Positions 38,768 to 47,573 of a DNA stretch of 64,000 nt are shown here, piece by piece. A program made the translations under genes and the position numbers. This stretch comes from Halieaceae bacterium. GTDB lineage: Bacteria > Pseudomonadota > Gammaproteobacteria > Pseudomonadales > Halieaceae. Numbering within the stretch: position 1 is the stretch's first letter; every line of letters begins with the position of its first letter. The stretch is taken from positions 1-64,000 of the forward strand of contig JANQLM010000121.1 of NCBI GenBank assembly GCA_028280635.1, read 5' to 3'. The notes under the pieces were generated by a model, which made no database searches, had not been told where the DNA came from, and was given only the letters and a program-made list of their open reading frames with translations.

Positions 38768-40669
38768 ATGCCGAGACACCAGGAATTACTCGCGGAGGTG
38801 GAAGCCTCACCCGAGGGCCCCCAGGTAGGGGCCTTTTTCGACTTTGATGGCACCGTAATCTACGGTTACTCCGCCATCGCCTTCATTCGCGAGCAGGTAA
38901 GACAGGGGCAACTCAAGCCCCGTGAGTTCATGGAACTGGCCGGTGCCATGACCAGCTTTGGCCTCGGCAATATGGGCTTCTCCGCCATGATGGTGGTGAC
39001 TTCACAGTTCATGCGCGGCGCCACCGAGCAGAGCTACATGGAGTTTGGTGAGGCCCTGTACCGTAAGCACATTGCCCGTCTCGTCTATCCCGAATCACGG
39101 GCGTTGATTGACGCCCACCTGGCCAAGGGCCATACCGTGGCCATCATCAGTTCCGCCACCCCGTACCAGGTGGAGCCCGCTGCCAGAGACCTGGGTGTCG
39201 AGCATGTGATGACCACCCAACTTGAGGTGGAGGACGGCGAGTTCACCGGCGCAGTGATTCGGCCGACCTGCTTTGGCCTCGGCAAGGTGCGAGCCGCCGA
39301 GACCCTCGCGGCTGAGCACGGGGTGGACCTGGCACAGACGTATTTTTACTCCGATAGCGACGACGACATCGAGCTGCTGGAGGCGGTCGGCAATCCCCGA
39401 CCGCTCAACCCCAACAAGAAGCTTACGGAGATCGCCGAGCGCGAGGGCTGGCCGGTGCAGCGCTTCAAGAGCCGCGGTCGCCCGGGGCTCACGGACTGGG
39501 CCCGCTCGCTGGCAGCCACCGGCAGCCTGATCACCTCGTTTGCCGCGGGACTGCCCATCTGGGCCATCACCGGCTCGCGGCGCGATGCCCAGAATTTCTC
39601 TTTCTCCCTGTTCGCCGATACCGCCAGTGCGCTGATCGGGCTGGATATGGACCTGCGCGGCGAGGAGAACCTCTGGAAGCAGCGCCCGGCAGTGTTCATC
39701 TTCAATCACCAGAGCAAGGCTGATGTGGTGATTGCCGCCAGCCTGGTGCGCAAGGACATCGCCGGTGTCGGCAAGAAAGAAATCAAGAAGATGCCGGTCA
39801 TAGGCCAGGTGATGGAGTTGGGCGGCACCGTGCTGATTGACCGCGACAACGCCACCAGTGCCATTGAGGCGATGCAGCCGCTGGTGGATGTGATGCGTGA
39901 GGAAGGCAAGTCAGTGGTAATGGCCCCGGAGGGCACCCGCACGGTATCGCCCAGGCTCGCGCCATTCAAAAAAGGCGCCTTTCACCTGGCCATGCAGGCC
40001 GGGGTGCCTATTGTGCCTATCGTCATTCACAACGCCCTCGACGTGGCCCCCAAGGGTGACTTCATCTTCCGACCCGCCACTGTCGAGGTCGAGGTGCTGC
40101 CGCCGGTGGATACCAGCAACTGGTCCCCCGAGACCGTCAGCGAGCACGTGGCTGAGGTACGCGCCATGTTCCTGGCGGCGCTGGGTCAGAGCGATGACAG
40201 CAAGCCGGTGGCCAGGAAGAAAGCCAAGACAAAAGCCAGGGCCAAATCGAAAACCCAGGCAAAAGCAAAGACGAAGACGAAAGCCGAGTCCAGGGCGAAA
40301 GCTAAAGCTCCGGCAAATGCCAAAGCTCCTGCGAAGAAAAAGCCTCCGGCCAGGAAGCCGGCCGGCGCTGTGGCGAAGACGAAGGCCGCAGCGAAAACGA
40401 GGGCCGCAGTGAAAACGAAGGCTCCGGCCAAGGCCAAATCCGCGGCCAAAGCAAAAACAGCGAGCAAGTCCAAGGCCAAGGCGAGGACTGCAGCGAAGAA
40501 GACAACCCCCGCCAAGGCGGCTCCCAAGGCAAAGGCCGCCAAAAAGCCCGCCGGCACGAAGAAGGCCGCCAGCAAGCGTCCCGCAAAGGCCGGGGCTGGT
40601 AAGGCGCCACGCCTCAAGGCCAAGCCCAAGGGCAGCGTAAAGCCTAAAGCCACCGGTAAGACCTCATGA
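38768..40669 (+). CDS. HAD-IB phosphatase / 1-acyl-glycerol-3-phosphate acyltransferase (PlsC-like) fusion with Lys/Ala-rich H1-like tail
   Basis: FFDFDGTVIYGYSAIAF (HAD); FNHQSKADVV...APEGTRTVSPRLAPFKKGAFHLA (PlsC-like); ~155-aa KA-rich tail. Confidence 0.93.
   Translation: MPRHQELLAEVEASPEGPQVGAFFDFDGTVIYGYSAIAFIREQVRQGQLKPREFMELAGAMTSFGLGNMGFSAMMVVTSQFMRGATEQSYMEFGEALYRKHIARLVYPESRALIDAHLAKGHTVAIISSATPYQVEPAARDLGVEHVMTTQLEVEDGEFTGAVIRPTCFGLGKVRAAETLAAEHGVDLAQTYFYSDSDDDIELLEAVGNPRPLNPNKKLTEIAEREGWPVQRFKSRGRPGLTDWARSLAATGSLITSFAAGLPIWAITGSRRDAQNFSFSLFADTASALIGLDMDLRGEENLWKQRPAVFIFNHQSKADVVIAASLVRKDIAGVGKKEIKKMPVIGQVMELGGTVLIDRDNATSAIEAMQPLVDVMREEGKSVVMAPEGTRTVSPRLAPFKKGAFHLAMQAGVPIVPIVIHNALDVAPKGDFIFRPATVEVEVLPPVDTSNWSPETVSEHVAEVRAMFLAALGQSDDSKPVARKKAKTKARAKSKTQAKAKTKTKAESRAKAKAPANAKAPAKKKPPARKPAGAVAKTKAAAKTRAAVKTKAPAKAKSAAKAKTASKSKAKARTAAKKTTPAKAAPKAKAAKKPAGTKKAASKRPAKAGAGKAPRLKAKPKGSVKPKATGKTS
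40201..40666 (+). repeat. Low-complexity Lys/Ala/Pro-rich coding tract (histone H1/AlgP/PhaF-like tail)
   Basis: KPVARKKAKTKARAKSKTQAKAKTKTKAESRAKAKAPANAKAPAKKKPPARKPAGAVAKTKAAAKTRAAVKTKAPAKAKSAAKAKT... Confidence 0.9.
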
Positions 40670-42966
40670 CACCGATGCCCTGGCAGGCGGCCGGACAGCA
40701 GGATGTGCTCTACATCCTCGATGCCGCCCACCGGGTGGAGGAAGACCTGCTGCGCACCTGGATCGAGGAGCAGCAACAGGCAGTGAGTTTTGCCGGCGAG
40801 GCCCGTTTCGTCGTGGTGCCGATCGCCCGCAGTCCTGAGAACATTCCTACCCGGGCACTGAGCGGCGCGCTGGATGTGCCTGCGAATACCTTGATTGTGC
40901 CGGTGCGCGTGGGCTGGATGAACTCGGTGGACCAGAAGTCGGTCACCCCGCGCCTGCGCGACCTGCTGTGGGGCAACCCGCGTAAACCTGGCCAGGCCAG
41001 GGCGCGGCGTATTCTGCGTCGCCAACCGGAGCGAGCCCAGTGCGTGGCAGCCGACGGTGCCACCCTGGATGAACTGCGCCAGCGTTATGCCCGCAGTCGT
41101 GGTGAAACCGCCAATTCCAGCCAGCTGGCCGATTTCGTCGCCGGCCAGGCGGGCCTGGCCCTGGACATCGCGGTGCGCAGGTTGCGCGGTGGTCGCTACA
41201 AGGTGCCGCGGCAGGTCGCCAAGAACCTGCAGGCGACACCGGCCTTCCGTGTCGGTCTGCAGCAGCTCAGTGCGGAAGAGGGCCGTCCGATGGCCGACAT
41301 CCAGCGCGAAACAGCGGAGATCATGAAGGAGCTGATTTCCATCCCGCGCACCTTCTGGCTGGATGTGATGGGCATGCTCAACCGCAAGATCATCTCTCTG
41401 GGCTATGAGACCGATATCGTGGTGGACCAGGCGGGCCTGGAGCGCATTCGCCAGGCCACGCGGCAGCATCCCACGGCGCTGTTGTGGACCCACAAGACCC
41501 ATGTGGATGGCTTTGCCATGCACTGGACCTTCTTCAAGAACGATTTTCCCGCGCCCCATATTCTCGGCGGTGTGAACATGGCTTTCGGCGGCCTGGGTTT
41601 TCTGGCGCGCCGGGCGGGTGCGATATTCATCCGTCGCAGTTTCCAGGACAACCAGCTCTATAAGTACATTTTGCGGGGCTACATCGGCTACCTGCTGGAG
41701 AAACGCTTCCCGCTGACCTGGGCATTCGAAGGTACCCGCTCCCGGGTCGGCAAGCTGATGCCACCACGCTACGGCCTGCTGAAATATGTTATCGAAGCCG
41801 CCCATGCGAGTGACGCCGACAACCTGCACATCGTCCCCATTGCCATCAACTACGACCTGATCGGCGACGTCAAGGATTATGCCACCGAGCAGGCCGGCGC
41901 CACCAAGCAGCCCGAGAGCCTGCGCTGGTTCATCGGCTACCTGCGCGGCCTGCGCCAGCCCATGGGGCGGATTTACATGGACTTCGGTGCGCCGGTGGTG
42001 CTGGAGAAAGCACCGGACCCCAGCGACACCCTGGCGCTGCAGAAAGTCGCCTTCCAGGTGGGCGTTGAGGTCAACCGTGTGACACCCATCACCCTGCCAT
42101 CACTGGCGACCATGATTCTGCTGGGGGCCGCGCCACGGGCCCTGACCGCGGCGGAACTCACCCGAGAGATGGAAGCACTGGTTGACTGGGCGCGACAGCG
42201 CGGCATCCGCATGACCAGCGATTTCGAGCCTGAAAACCGCGAAGCGCTCAATTCCCTGGCGGACACCCTGGTCGCCAACGGCCTGATTACCCGCTACGAC
42301 GGCGGGCCGGAAAGGGTGTACGCCATCACCCCGGAGCAGGACGGCGTCGCCAGCTACTATCGCAATACCACTATCCACCACTTTGTGAACAAGGCCATCA
42401 TCGAGCTGTCGATGATGAAGCTGGCCCAGTTCAACGCCTCCAGCCTGGAGGGCTTCTGGGAGGAGGCCGAGCGCCTGCGTGACCTGTTCAAGTTTGAGTT
42501 TTTCTACGCGCCGACCGCGGAGTTCCGTGACGACCTGCGCGCCGATTTGGCCCGCTATGACACCGACTGGGAGCAGCGCCTCGACAACGAAGCCGGCTTT
42601 GCCCAGCGGGTGATGGCGGAGTACTACCCCATGGTCTCCCATTCCACCCTGCTGCACTTTGTGGACGGCTACCGGGTGGTGGCCGATGTGCTGGCCCTGC
42701 AAGCCGATGATGCCGGCCTGGATGAAAAGGAGTGCGTGAGCCAGGCGCTGGCCTACGGCCGCCAGGCCTATTTGCAACGGCGCATCAGTTCCCAGGCCTC
42801 CATCGGCAAGCTGCTATTCCAGAATGCCTGGAAGCTGATGGACAACCGGGGCCTGGCCCGGGGAGGCGGCGCCGCTGTTGGCGAGAAGCGCCGCGAAGTG
42901 TCCCAGGACTTGAGGGAACTGTCCCACCGCATCGATATTGTTCGCACACTGGCCCTGCCGAGGTAA
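40666..42966 (+). CDS. Glycerol-3-phosphate acyltransferase (PlsB-like)
   Basis: ALLWTHKTHVDGFAMHWTFF...FEGTRSRVGKLMPPRYGLLKYV; 766 aa; ATGA overlap with the upstream gene. Confidence 0.9.
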   Translation: MTPMPWQAAGQQDVLYILDAAHRVEEDLLRTWIEEQQQAVSFAGEARFVVVPIARSPENIPTRALSGALDVPANTLIVPVRVGWMNSVDQKSVTPRLRDLLWGNPRKPGQARARRILRRQPERAQCVAADGATLDELRQRYARSRGETANSSQLADFVAGQAGLALDIAVRRLRGGRYKVPRQVAKNLQATPAFRVGLQQLSAEEGRPMADIQRETAEIMKELISIPRTFWLDVMGMLNRKIISLGYETDIVVDQAGLERIRQATRQHPTALLWTHKTHVDGFAMHWTFFKNDFPAPHILGGVNMAFGGLGFLARRAGAIFIRRSFQDNQLYKYILRGYIGYLLEKRFPLTWAFEGTRSRVGKLMPPRYGLLKYVIEAAHASDADNLHIVPIAINYDLIGDVKDYATEQAGATKQPESLRWFIGYLRGLRQPMGRIYMDFGAPVVLEKAPDPSDTLALQKVAFQVGVEVNRVTPITLPSLATMILLGAAPRALTAAELTREMEALVDWARQRGIRMTSDFEPENREALNSLADTLVANGLITRYDGGPERVYAITPEQDGVASYYRNTTIHHFVNKAIIELSMMKLAQFNASSLEGFWEEAERLRDLFKFEFFYAPTAEFRDDLRADLARYDTDWEQRLDNEAGFAQRVMAEYYPMVSHSTLLHFVDGYRVVADVLALQADDAGLDEKECVSQALAYGRQAYLQRRISSQASIGKLLFQNAWKLMDNRGLARGGGAAVGEKRREVSQDLRELSHRIDIVRTLALPR

Positions 42967-42969
42967 GCC

Positions 42970-44571
42970 ATGCAGCAGCTCAGTCCGCAGGATGCCCAGT
43001 TCCTGTACATGGAATCCGAGGACAACCTCACCCATGTCACCAGCATAAATATCTTCGATCCCTCCACCGTGCCCGGCGGCAAGGTGGTGCGCTTCAAGGA
43101 GATCATCGCCCACGTCGAACAGCGGCTGGCGGCCAACCCGATGTTGCGCCGCAAACTGGTGAGAGTGCCCCTGGAACTGGATTACCCCTACTGGGCGGAC
43201 GACGAGTTTTTCGACCTGGAATACCACATTCGCCACGGCCGCCTGCCGCGGCCCGGTGACTGGCGCCAGTTCTGTATCCACATGGCCCGCTACCATTCGC
43301 GGCCACTGGATATGAACAAGCCCCTGTGGGAGCTTTACGTATCGGAGGGCCTGGACGATATCGAGGGCCTGCCGCCGGGCTGTTATGCGGTGGCCATCAA
43401 GGTGCACCACGCGGCGGTGGACGGCGCTTCACTGATCCGCTTCCTGATGTCGCTGGTGGATATCGACAACCAGGGCACTCCGGTGGCCCCGTTGGAGCTG
43501 GCCGACGCGGAAGACAGCCCCCGGCCAAGCCTGCGGGACATGGCCCGGCGGGCGGCGGCCAACAACCTGCGTTCGCCGGTGCGGATAGCCGATGCGATCC
43601 TGCGCAACTCCCCGCTGCTGGTGGAGACCGCGCGTGACAGCCTGACGCGCCGCAAGGGTGACAAGCAGACGGTGCCCTGGACGCGTTTCAATACCCGGGT
43701 GTCGCCGCACAAGATGTTCGATGCCTGTGACGTCGCCCTGGCGGACCTGAAGCGCATTCGCCAGTTGGCGCCGGGATCGACAATTAACGATGTGGTGCTG
43801 GCAATCTGCGCGGGGGGCCTGCGTGAGTACCTGAGCCACCACAATGAGTTGCCTGATGACCCTCTGGTAGCCTGGGTGCCCATCAACGCCCGACCCGGCG
43901 GCGCCAGCGACCAGAGCGAGCCCGGCAACAATATTGCCGCCATGACCACCTCCCTGCACACCGACCAGGCGGACCCGGTAAAGCGGCTCCAGGCTGTACA
44001 CGCCTCTACCCAACGCAGCAAGGAAGCCAAGTCGGGGGTCTCGGCGCGGCTGCTGACCGATATTACCCAGCATGTGCCGGCGGCAACCCAGGTGCTGGCC
44101 AGCCGGCTGATCCTGCAGCTCAGCCAGTCGGTGCGGGTCTGCAACCTGTTTATCTCCAATGTACCGGGACCGCAGTTCCCGGTATACATGAATGGCGCCC
44201 AGCAAGTGGGCAGCTACGGTCTGGCGCCACTGGCCAATGGCATGGGCCTGTTTATCGGTACACCCAGCTACAACGGGCGCATGAGCTTCAACGTTATTTC
44301 CAGCCGCGAACTGTTACCGGATATTCGCTACTTCACCGAGTGCCTGGTGCGCTCCTTTGAGGCGCTGCTGGCAGCCGCAGCCGGGCTTGAAAAGACTGCG
44401 GCGAAACCGGCGTCCAGGGCCAGGAAGAAATCAAAGGTCAAGTCCAAGACCGGAGCGAAACCCGGCGCGAGTGCAAAAACCGCCAGGAAGGCCAAGGCGG
44501 GGCCGAAAGCGAAAGCCAAGGCTCGCCCGCGGCGCAAGGTCAAGCCGAAGAGCGCGTCGAACACCGAATAA
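42970..44571 (+). CDS. Wax ester synthase/diacylglycerol acyltransferase (WS/DGAT) with basic H1-like tail
   Basis: KVHHAAVDGASLIRFL (HHxxxDG active site); SNVPGPQFPVYMNGAQ; C-terminal Lys/Ala/Arg-rich extension. Confidence 0.95.
   Translation: MQQLSPQDAQFLYMESEDNLTHVTSINIFDPSTVPGGKVVRFKEIIAHVEQRLAANPMLRRKLVRVPLELDYPYWADDEFFDLEYHIRHGRLPRPGDWRQFCIHMARYHSRPLDMNKPLWELYVSEGLDDIEGLPPGCYAVAIKVHHAAVDGASLIRFLMSLVDIDNQGTPVAPLELADAEDSPRPSLRDMARRAAANNLRSPVRIADAILRNSPLLVETARDSLTRRKGDKQTVPWTRFNTRVSPHKMFDACDVALADLKRIRQLAPGSTINDVVLAICAGGLREYLSHHNELPDDPLVAWVPINARPGGASDQSEPGNNIAAMTTSLHTDQADPVKRLQAVHASTQRSKEAKSGVSARLLTDITQHVPAATQVLASRLILQLSQSVRVCNLFISNVPGPQFPVYMNGAQQVGSYGLAPLANGMGLFIGTPSYNGRMSFNVISSRELLPDIRYFTECLVRSFEALLAAAAGLEKTAAKPASRARKKSKVKSKTGAKPGASAKTARKAKAGPKAKAKARPRRKVKPKSASNTE
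44395..44568 (+). repeat. Low-complexity Lys/Ala/Arg-rich coding tract
   Basis: EKTAAKPASRARKKSKVKSKTGAKPGASAKTARKAKAGPKAKAKARPRRKVKPKSASNTE. Confidence 0.85.
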
Positions 44572-44592: not shown

Positions 44593-45594
44593 ATGCAGCT
44601 GAGCGTGGGCCTACTCGGGGGCGGCTCCTGGGGTACAACCGTGGCGTCGCTGGTGGCGCGCAATACGCGAGTAACGCTGTGGGCGCGGGATGCGGACACC
44701 GTCGCGCAAATCAACAGCGAGCACCGCAATGAAAAATACCTGCCGGGAGCAACCCTGCCGGAGAACCTCACTGCCACTACCGATCTCGCCGAAGCGGTAG
44801 CCGGTGTGGATGTGCTGATCATGGGTATCCCATCCCAGGGGTTTCGCTCGGTGCTGGAACTGGTCAAGCCACATCTTCGGGCCTGGGTGCCTGTGATCAG
44901 CCTGACCAAGGGTCTGGAACTCGACACTCGCAAGCGCATGACGGAAATCATTCAGGAAGTGCTGCCGGGCCACCCGGTCGGCGTGCTCACCGGCCCCAAC
45001 CTCGCCCGCGAAATTATGTCCGGGCAGGCGGCGGCCAGCGTGATTGCCATGGATGACGAAATCATCGTACAGGAGCTGCAGAACCTGTTTCGGTCGGGCC
45101 TGTTTCGGGTCTACACCAACGACGACGTCATCGGCTGCGAACTGGGCGGCGTGCTCAAGAACATTATTGCCATTGCCGTGGGGATGGGCGATGGCCAGGG
45201 CGCGGGCGACAACACCCGTTCGGCTTTGATTACCCGTGGGCTCGCCGAAGTGACCCGTCTGGGTGTGGCCATGGGCGGGCGCGCCGAGACCTTCGCGGGC
45301 CTGGCGGGGATGGGCGATATGATTGCCACCTGCACCAGTCCCCAGAGCCGCAACCGCCATGTGGGAGTGGAACTGGGCAAGGGGCGACATATTGAGGAGA
45401 TTATCGAGGAGATGGTGATGGTGGCTGAGGGTGTGAAAAGCGCACCGGCGGTGATGGCCCTGGCAGAGTCCCACGAGATCGATATGCCGATTGCCAGCGA
45501 CGTGTTCCGGGTCGTCACCGGTGAATCCAATGCACGCCAGGCCTTCCGTGGTCTGTTACGGGTCACGCCCGGCGCCGAGTCGGAGCCAGGCTGA
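44593..45594 (+). CDS. gpsA: NAD(P)H-dependent glycerol-3-phosphate dehydrogenase
   Basis: VGLLGGGSWGTTVASLVARN; LTGPNLAREI; GVLKNIIAIAVGMGDG. Confidence 0.95.
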   Translation: MQLSVGLLGGGSWGTTVASLVARNTRVTLWARDADTVAQINSEHRNEKYLPGATLPENLTATTDLAEAVAGVDVLIMGIPSQGFRSVLELVKPHLRAWVPVISLTKGLELDTRKRMTEIIQEVLPGHPVGVLTGPNLAREIMSGQAAASVIAMDDEIIVQELQNLFRSGLFRVYTNDDVIGCELGGVLKNIIAIAVGMGDGQGAGDNTRSALITRGLAEVTRLGVAMGGRAETFAGLAGMGDMIATCTSPQSRNRHVGVELGKGRHIEEIIEEMVMVAEGVKSAPAVMALAESHEIDMPIASDVFRVVTGESNARQAFRGLLRVTPGAESEPG

Positions 45595-47573
45595 TGCAGC
45601 ACCGGGAAGCAAGCTTCAAGGGCGCCGGCGAGGCAGAGATTCATTACCAGCAGTGGTCACCGGAGCACAAGCCGCGGGCCCTGATCGTGCTGGTGCACGG
45701 GGCGGCGGAGCACAGTGGCCGCTATCGCCGCTTCGCCGAACACTTCGTACATTCGGGCTATGCCACGGCGGCGCTGGACCATATTGGCCATGGCCGCTCC
45801 GAGGGCCAGCGCGGCTACGTGGGCAACTTTGGTGGGTACGTCGAGACCCTGGATCGTTTCCTGCGGCTGCTGAAGCAGGAATTCCCGGACATTCCGCGGG
45901 TGCTGCTGGGCCATAGCATGGGTGGCCTGATCGCCAGTTGCTACCTGCTGCAAAACCAGGATGACTTTGTCGGCTGCGTGCTGTCGGGGCCGGCCATCAA
46001 GACCGATCTGGAACCACCCCTCTGGCAGCGGCTGTTGATCCAGTTTTTCGCCGCGGTGGCGCCGCGCCTGGGGGTGCTGCAACTGGATGCCAGCGGCGTA
46101 AGCCGTGACCCACTGGAAGTGCGGCAGTACCTCGACGACCCGCTGGTCTACGGTGGCAAACTGACTGCTCGCAAGGTGGCACAACTGTTTGCCGCCATGC
46201 AATGGATACAGGAACAGGCGGCGGATATTCACCTGCCCATGCTGTTGATGCACGGCGAAGCCGACAGCCTGACGTCGCCCGCAGGTTCCCGATACCTGTA
46301 CGAGCGCATCAGCTCCGAAGACAAGACGCTCAAGCTGTATCCCGGCCTCTACCACGAGATTTTCAACGAGCCCGAGCGAGCCCAGGTGTTTGCCGACCTG
46401 CAGGACTGGCTGGACCAGCGCCTGGAGCGGCGCCAGGCGGACGCGGCCGCCGATGCCGCGCCGGGTGTTCCGGAACCCTACATTCTCTATGGCGGCGAGC
46501 TGTCCTATTACACGGGCAAGGCCCGCGCCTACCTGCGTTTCAAGGGGGTGCCTTTTGAGGAGCGTACGGCGACCCGTGAGGTCTACAAGACCATCATTGT
46601 GCCCGCCGCCGGCGCGCCGATTATCCCAGTGCTGGCGGCTCCCGGTGGCGAACTGGTGCAGGACACCACCGAGATCATCGACTTCCTGGAAGCACGGCAT
46701 CCCGAACCCTCGGTCTATCCCGGCGGCGCCCGCCAGAAGCTGGTGGCGCTGATGCTGGAGCACTACGGCGATGAATGGCTGGTCATACCGGCCATGCACT
46801 ACCGCTGGTCCTACCTTGAACAACAGCATGACTTCATCATGGGCGAGTTCGGCGCCCTCAGTGCGCCGGAAGCCAGCCGCGAGGAGCAGATCGCCATTGG
46901 CAAAAAAACCTCGGCACCTTTCCGGGGCAGTATCCCCATGCTGGGTGTCAACGAAGTCACCATTCCCGCTATCGAGAGCGAGTGGCATCGGCTGATGGCG
47001 CAGCTCGACGCGCATTTTTCCCAGCACCCCTTCCTGCTGGGTACGCGCCCCAGTATCGGCGACTTCGGTTTAATGGGGCCGCTGTATGCACACCTCGGTC
47101 GCGACCCGGTACCCCGTGCGCTGATGGAAGAAAAGGCGCCGCGCCTGTACGACTGGGTATGCCGCATGAACGCTCCAGATGATGCCCCGGGAGAATTCCT
47201 GGCGGACGATGAGATCCCCGACACGCTGTTGCCGGTGCTGGAAACGCTGAGCCGTGATTTCCTGCCGGATGTACGCGGCGTGATCGAAAAAAATGCCGGT
47301 TTCATGGAGGCCAGGCCCGGCGAGGATATCCCGCGCTATCTCGGCATGCAGCCGTTTCGCACCGGCAGCGCAGAGAGCGAGCGGATAGTGCATAGTTACT
47401 CCCAGTGGCTGTTCCAGCGTGCCTTTGATCACTACCAGGCGCTCGACGGCGATGCCCGCGCGGCCGCCGCCGCCCTGCTTGATCGCATCGGTGCCCTGGA
47501 GACTTTCCAGGCACCGCTGCTCCACCGCGTCAAACGCAAGCCCGGCCAATTGGAGCTGGTGACAGCCGCGTAA
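45594..47573 (+). CDS. Alpha/beta hydrolase (monoacylglycerol lipase-like) fused to glutathione S-transferase-like domain
   Basis: N-terminus VLVHGAAEHSGRYRRFAEHF...LLGHSMGGLIA...MLLMHGEADSLTSP; C-terminus YILYGGELSYYTGKARAYLRFKGVPFEERTA...DTTEIIDFLEARHP. Confidence 0.9.
   Translation: MQHREASFKGAGEAEIHYQQWSPEHKPRALIVLVHGAAEHSGRYRRFAEHFVHSGYATAALDHIGHGRSEGQRGYVGNFGGYVETLDRFLRLLKQEFPDIPRVLLGHSMGGLIASCYLLQNQDDFVGCVLSGPAIKTDLEPPLWQRLLIQFFAAVAPRLGVLQLDASGVSRDPLEVRQYLDDPLVYGGKLTARKVAQLFAAMQWIQEQAADIHLPMLLMHGEADSLTSPAGSRYLYERISSEDKTLKLYPGLYHEIFNEPERAQVFADLQDWLDQRLERRQADAAADAAPGVPEPYILYGGELSYYTGKARAYLRFKGVPFEERTATREVYKTIIVPAAGAPIIPVLAAPGGELVQDTTEIIDFLEARHPEPSVYPGGARQKLVALMLEHYGDEWLVIPAMHYRWSYLEQQHDFIMGEFGALSAPEASREEQIAIGKKTSAPFRGSIPMLGVNEVTIPAIESEWHRLMAQLDAHFSQHPFLLGTRPSIGDFGLMGPLYAHLGRDPVPRALMEEKAPRLYDWVCRMNAPDDAPGEFLADDEIPDTLLPVLETLSRDFLPDVRGVIEKNAGFMEARPGEDIPRYLGMQPFRTGSAESERIVHSYSQWLFQRAFDHYQALDGDARAAAAALLDRIGALETFQAPLLHRVKRKPGQLELVTAA

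Follow-up and report, generated by a model that had tools for sequence, protein, structure and literature searches.

Lysine-rich disordered tails on two lipid-assembly enzymes of a Halieaceae gene cluster: conserved polycations and candidate electrostatic tethers

Why should two enzymes of lipid assembly, built on unrelated folds, both end in a long disordered stretch of Lys and Ala residues? The question is raised by a window of DNA (the whole stretch that was analysed, 64,000 nucleotides of contig JANQLM010000121.1) from the genome of a Halieaceae bacterium, in which five near-touching genes on the + strand encode an HAD-PlsC fusion, a glycerol-3-phosphate acyltransferase (GPAT), a wax ester synthase/diacylglycerol acyltransferase (WS/DGAT), GpsA, and a lipase fused to a glutathione-S-transferase (GST). 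The gene cluster as such is already published; the tails, which are carried by HAD-PlsC and WS/DGAT, are real and conserved, and they are undescribed in the literature that we searched, where no direct report on lysine-rich tails of WS/DGAT or acyltransferases was found. The features concerned are as follows (loci and genomes are cited below by our own L and G numbers).

38768..40669, + strand: HAD-PlsC fusion (HAD-IB phosphatase-like plus 1-acylglycerol-3-phosphate acyltransferase), 633 aa; PF12710 (E 4e-35, residues 22-205), PF01553 (E 8e-34, residues 295-420), TIGR01490
40202..40666, + strand: cationic disordered C-terminal tail of HAD-PlsC, residues 479-633; from composition and AlphaFold2 (pLDDT 34-43, no secondary structure)
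40637..40648, + strand: VKPK tip of the HAD-PlsC tail, residues 624-627
42970..44571, + strand: WS/DGAT, 533 aa; PF03007, PF06974, TIGR02946 (411 bits), HHAAVDG motif
44392..44568, + strand: cationic disordered C-terminal tail of WS/DGAT, approximately residues 475-533 (~59 aa); from composition and AlphaFold2 (no secondary structure)
44539..44550, + strand: VKPK tip of the WS/DGAT tail, residues 524-527

An earlier note on this DNA had claimed that basic tails are appended here to complete catalytic domains, and its open reading frames, coordinates and tail lengths were all reproduced. HAD-PlsC has an HAD domain with DxDGT and a PlsC domain with NHxxxxD and PEGTR, and the motifs themselves (DFDGT, NHQSKAD and PEGTR) show no variation among relatives. 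In WS/DGAT, both the WS_DGAT_cat domain (residues 4-276, covering PF03007 positions 1-263 of 263) and the WS_DGAT_C domain (residues 319-466, PF06974 positions 2-144 of 145) are complete, and HHxxxDG is present. The HAD-PlsC tail contains 56 Lys and Arg, 49 Ala and 14 Pro but only one acidic residue in 155 aa, and that of WS/DGAT, when counted from residue 471, contains 23 Lys and Arg and two acidic residues in 63 aa. In AlphaFold2 models, which were run with alignments of 20 homologues, the HAD-PlsC core extends until around residue 477, while residues 478-633, as well as residues 486-533 of WS/DGAT, are nearly all below 50 in pLDDT and have no secondary structure; the block means of pLDDT are 34-43 (HAD-PlsC 481-633) and 35-49 (WS/DGAT 481-533), with the cores mostly confident. 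Domain borders were extrapolated from BLAST and are accurate to a few residues. Both tails are thus Lys/Ala/Pro-rich, disordered and strongly basic, as are the C-termini of PhaF, PhaM and histone H1-like proteins.

The tails do not result from an error in the reading frame: the frame is open, relatives bear the same tails, and the stop codon of HAD-PlsC overlaps the start codon of GPAT (ATGA), which means that the reading frame of HAD-PlsC stays open across its tail as far as the next gene. Nor are they a recent expansion of repeated DNA, because Tandem Repeats Finder detected only 50 bp of tandem repeat in the tail DNA and synonymous codons are mixed in the long tail at least as much as in the core (codon entropy of 0.94 vs 0.65 for Lys and 1.83 vs 1.37 for Ala); an artefact of DNA repeats was ruled out on these grounds.

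The presence of the tails in close relatives had been set beforehand as a test that could refute the idea, and the tails passed it: a tail is present in each of the 30 HAD-PlsC sequences that the closest relatives yielded, from many genera of Halieaceae as well as two further families in the order, and in most WS/DGATs. Members of the genus share 95-96% identity in the HAD-PlsC core, yet their tails measure 128, 155 and 169 aa and are rearranged in order; the charge of the tail is kept, and its sequence and length vary. Retention of charge during turnover of sequence is the pattern expected of selection on a disordered polycation. In a wider set of homologues from Gamma- and Alphaproteobacteria, from which tails cut by contig ends were excluded, strong tails were found in 76 of the 98 HAD-PlsC sequences and in 88 of the 113 WS/DGATs, and in none of the 66 GPAT homologues. 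Tail composition is alike in both families (Lys 25-27%, Ala 23%, Pro 11%, Asp plus Glu about 3% in HAD-PlsC and 2% in WS/DGAT, and nearly no Phe, Trp or Tyr). In a contig scan cut to its 80 nearest loci, which are proteobacterial with few exceptions, tailed homologues reach Woeseiaceae, Arenicella, Lysobacterales, Sphingomonadaceae and Kordiimonadaceae with some tail-less exceptions. The state of the tail has changed at least 11 times in HAD-PlsC and at least 15 times in WS/DGAT, as tallied on fast trees. Also, there are 42 gamma- and alphaproteobacterial loci in which HAD-PlsC and WS/DGAT are linked, and most of these include GPAT; both enzymes are tailed in 31 of the 42 and at least one in 39, so that the combination of two tails recurs and is not special to this operon. 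Within a cluster, the net charges of the two tails showed no significant correlation (Spearman 0.23, p 0.15). Taken together, there is little room for doubt about the anatomy of the tails and the selection acting on them.

Such tails are rare in the genome to which the window belongs. In a sample of 1.75 Mb (39% of the genome) with 1,275 gene calls made by a simple codon-model script, 11 proteins had a C-terminal stretch of low complexity whose net charge reached +10 or more over 40 residues: namely, four WS/DGATs, HAD-PlsC, a phasin, a protein with a weak helix-turn-helix match, RNase R, a DEAD-box helicase-like protein (labelled by eye, without a profile run), a pseudouridine synthase, and a protein with KSKKSD repeats. 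With 11 cases in 1,275 gene calls, a genome-wide habit of adding tails is rejected. The frequency is 4/6 among WS/DGATs against 7/1,269 among all other proteins (Fisher 4e-8), but contigs with WS/DGATs were sampled deliberately and the fair comparison is hence within classes; among ten acyltransferases of PF01553 (LPLATs), HAD-PlsC alone is tailed, which rules out a general feature of LPLATs. Two of the 11 proteins deserve description. The KSKKSD-repeat protein (G000:C25:1294-2814, L329; 507 aa) is probably secreted and has near-perfect repeats at its C-terminus, which makes it another kind of basic tail, and the protein with the weak match, to HTH_31 (G000:C105:98545-99336; 264 aa), has a KA-rich tail with ARPK close to its end.

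The earlier note had placed the proposed mechanism in the enzymes "rather than a phasin", and this part failed: the same genome also encodes a PhaF-type phasin (PF05597) with a KA-rich tail (G000:C123:3-488, L126). The PF05597 domain is absent from HAD-PlsC and WS/DGAT themselves, and no PHA (polyhydroxyalkanoate) synthase, PhaC, was found by a PF07167 search in this genome (98.6% complete). Among 73 genomes of the family, the phasin tracks a strong WS/DGAT match (49/4 vs 5/15, Fisher 3e-8) also when genomes at least 90% complete are considered (43/2 vs 4/8, 1e-5); since genomes are not independent of each other, the figure by genus, tabulated by hand (20/2 vs 2/4, 0.01), is the more honest one. 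No association of the phasin with PhaC was seen in the same 73 genomes (10/1 vs 44/18, p 0.27). H1-like tails in this family hence accompany makers of neutral lipids rather than of PHA, and these phasins probably coat neutral-lipid droplets. In several Halieaceae loci (L284-L287 and others), furthermore, a second, tail-less phasin-like gene is located near the tailed phasin, forming a PhaF/PhaI-like pair.

What, then, would the tails do? We propose that each tail acts as a multivalent electrostatic tether that would hold the enzyme and its lipid product on a polyanion, and some function of this kind appears quite probable. Tails of like composition bind DNA without sequence preference and position granules or droplets in MLDS, JLP, PhaF and PhaM (PMC5504291, PMC5658603, PMC13052382), which favours an electrostatic tether with DNA as its likeliest partner; PhaF, PhaM and AlgP are precedents for DNA binding (PMC5658603, PMC13052382), and in Rhodococcus jostii, MLDS and JLP tie droplets of neutral lipid to DNA by means of C-termini that are rich in lysine and contain PAKKA motifs (PMC5504291). 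Nucleoid DNA would therefore be the likeliest partner of the WS/DGATs and the phasin, and by analogy with these proteins we tentatively give nucleoid DNA as the main partner of the tails a probability of roughly 0.45. Nascent droplets might in this way be kept spread along the nucleoid and shared out at division, like PHA granules with PhaF/PhaM and Rhodococcus droplets with MLDS; the same tail of HAD-PlsC could act either on DNA or on an anionic membrane, and VKPK at the tip of the tail may serve as an exposed docking peptide. In a more far-reaching reading, which is rather unlikely, the positioning of droplets would be part of the synthesis machinery itself: the polycationic tails of HAD-PlsC, of several WS/DGATs and of a PhaF-type phasin that serves lipid droplets and not PHA would jointly pin nascent droplets to the nucleoid, and the shared VKPK tip would recruit a factor common to them. 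This would apply to Halieaceae and, in parallel, to Sphingomonadaceae, Woeseiaceae and Arenicella-type bacteria.

Several observations weigh against nucleoid DNA as the main partner. The earlier note had called the tails histone-H1-like, and this description fits their Lys/Ala/Pro-rich, basic and disordered nature but less clearly the arrangement of their residues, which is of KxK-type spacing with few PAKKA-like motifs. Namely, 45-49% of Lys and Arg stand in doublets in the enzyme tails compared with 86% in the phasin tails, PAKKA-like motifs number 0.6-0.9 against 3.4 per 100 residues, and [PA]AKK[APTS] occurs 1.9 times per 100 residues in the HAD-PlsC tail of the window, not at all in its WS/DGAT tail, and 3.4 times in phasin tails; judged from these counts, the enzyme tails do not appear to be simply of the PhaF/H1 type. 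Tail-less HAD-PlsC and WS/DGAT exist among homologues, including two of the six WS/DGATs in the same genome, and the tail is thus not essential for catalysis. RNase R, the DEAD-box helicase-like protein and the pseudouridine synthase bear similar tails, making RNA a possible partner. Moreover, HAD-PlsC has a tail of 80-93 aa in two Halieaceae genomes (G059 and G071) with no match to WS/DGAT or phasin, and one of 170 residues in HTCC2080 (G014), which has one weak WS/DGAT match and no phasin match. The HAD-PlsC tail hence need not concern droplets, and its strict coupling to neutral-lipid storage is not supported.

These observations bring forward membrane anchoring as a strong rival, particularly for HAD-PlsC: the polycationic tails would keep the enzymes attached to the anionic inner leaflet, or else to the phospholipid monolayer around a droplet, and thereby ease local access to phosphatidate, diacylglycerol and acyl-CoA. 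The substrates are all membrane lipids, the HAD-PlsC tail is retained where WS/DGAT and phasin are absent, and the lysine-rich tail of HBHA binds anionic lipid and supports the formation of inclusions (PMC6176652). In TubY, a lysine-rich tail binds membrane as well as DNA (PMC7762940), and the two readings are therefore not exclusive. Hydrophobic residues are, however, nearly absent from the tails, making an inserting amphipathic helix unlikely; helices that could bind membrane are already predicted in the HAD-PlsC core (residues 241-290, beside the PlsC fold), and GPAT and the other LPLATs, which act at this membrane too, have no tail of the kind. We consider membrane anchoring possible, though on the unlikely side, as the main explanation.

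Docking to a protein is quite unlikely to be the principal role. The hypervariable tail would then be a flexible linker presenting a conserved tip, [SA][VA][KR]PK[L], to a shared partner that gathers HAD-PlsC and WS/DGAT at one assembly site. Indeed, Halieaceae tails frequently end in [SA][VA][KR]PK(L), and this VKPK-type motif is common to the two unrelated folds. With counts that are inflated by the relatedness of the sequences, [VA][KR]PK is found within the final 15 residues in 26 of 76 HAD-PlsC tails (shuffle mean 3.0) and in 16 of 77 WS/DGAT tails (shuffle mean 2.5), and the density of V[KR]PK in HAD-PlsC tails is 0.0105 at the tip and 0.0008 in the interior. The motif lies at most 18 residues from the end in only five of 748 proteins of the same genome, three of which are these enzymes. 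Other lineages have tips and motifs of their own, including KVSARSL and SVMYRRVSKTPR, and lineage-specific docking peptides at tail ends are possible; the motif is, nonetheless, absent from most tails. Among Arenicella-type HAD-PlsC tails, we noticed a conserved tip KVSAR[ST]L (L153, L160 and L164), and L135 and L146 end in VSA.GARE. Sphingomonad WS/DGAT tails (L154, L158, L159, L161, L162, L166, L167, L177 and L179) share an internal motif (DASVMYRRVSKTPR or DGSVMYRRVARKPR) that is conserved in otherwise variable basic surroundings.

Polycations bind any polyanion, and a further alternative is accordingly that the tails bind RNA, ribosomes or polyphosphate, form condensates, or keep sticky acyltransferases soluble. 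Related tails are present on RNA enzymes of the same genome and AlgP positions polyphosphate granules (PMC13052382), but the tails concentrate on WS/DGAT, HAD-PlsC and phasin, not on RNA proteins generally, and we regard this alternative as improbable. A neutral, functionless extension by slippage at DNA repeats would suit the fast growth and shrinkage of the tails and the many changes of tail state counted above, but it is scarcely credible given the exclusion of acidic residues across two classes, the mixed synonymous codons, the mere 50 bp of tandem repeat, and the rarity of tails elsewhere in the proteome.

As for the operon around the tailed enzymes, the remaining genes are as follows.

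40666..42966, + strand: GPAT, mycobacterial-type glycerol-3-phosphate acyltransferase, 766 aa, no tail; NF002886, 778.7 bits over cut-off
44593..45594, + strand: GpsA, no tail; NF009098, 515.6 bits over cut-off
45594..47573, + strand: alpha/beta hydrolase (monoacylglycerol lipase/lysophospholipase-like) fused to a glutathione-S-transferase-like domain, no tail; PF12146 (E 3e-81), PF13417

As predicted from their sequences, the first four genes of the operon make up the Kennedy pathway: they would supply glycerol-3-phosphate, carry out the two acylations, contribute a candidate phosphatidate phosphatase in the HAD domain, and complete the last acyl transfer. HAD-PlsC, GPAT and WS/DGAT adjoin in the window; WS/DGAT is adjacent to HAD-PlsC in the genus of the window (G003) and in several other lineages, but not in most Halieaceae loci. 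The hydrolase-GST fusion is found at full length in a genus mate (G001), its parts match two separate adjacent genes in G021, and the fusion looks genus-specific. The cluster has been described in Alpha- and Gammaproteobacteria (PMC10351704), and its form in Rhodococcus and mycobacteria is atf9-plsB-plsC, named a house-keeping set there (PMC4850399).

A link between bacterial lipid droplets and DNA has been shown in Rhodococcus with MLDS; for Gram-negative makers of wax ester and triacylglycerol (TAG), which are common in marine sediment, no such mechanism was found in the papers searched. The idea of a tether is plausible by analogy, and a conserved tail on the synthases would offer a direct handle on it, in that a tail might be removed with catalysis left intact and droplets then counted. 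Tethering by the tails would also help to explain the persistence of phasins in genomes without PHA synthase, and in work on oil production, C-terminal truncation or tagging of such enzymes may remove a functional part.

In comparison with known systems, the operon shares its set of genes (a HAD-AGPAT fusion, GPAT and WS/DGAT) with the atf9-plsB-plsC operon, and GpsA is added in Gammaproteobacteria (PMC4850399, PMC10351704); the text of the paper on the proteobacterial Kennedy operon mentions neither tails nor lysine, and nothing basic or disordered (PMC10351704). WS/DGAT matches PDB entries 6chj and 7nxg of the same family over the catalytic core, but these chains have 455 and 463 residues, the match stops at residue 463-468 of the query, and the tail is without a counterpart. 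HBHA of mycobacteria likewise has a C-terminal repeat rich in lysine, alanine and proline that is required for the formation of lipid inclusions (PMC6176652), but it is not an enzyme and binds phosphoinositides in a methylation-dependent manner; it points to lipid and not to DNA, which also counts against a nucleoid partner. MLDS and JLP resemble the present enzymes in having lysine-rich C-termini in the context of neutral lipids, but they are droplet proteins of actinobacteria and not acyltransferases. PhaF of Pseudomonas and PhaM of Ralstonia are granule-associated proteins with a basic, histone-like C-terminal part, and PhaM contacts PhaC, too. The repeats of AAKP/PAKKA type are fewer in the enzyme tails described here; and while the tail of PhaF and PhaM is on a phasin or phasin-like protein of the PHA granule, the tails in Halieaceae are fused to the enzymes that synthesize TAG or wax ester and the precursors of these lipids.

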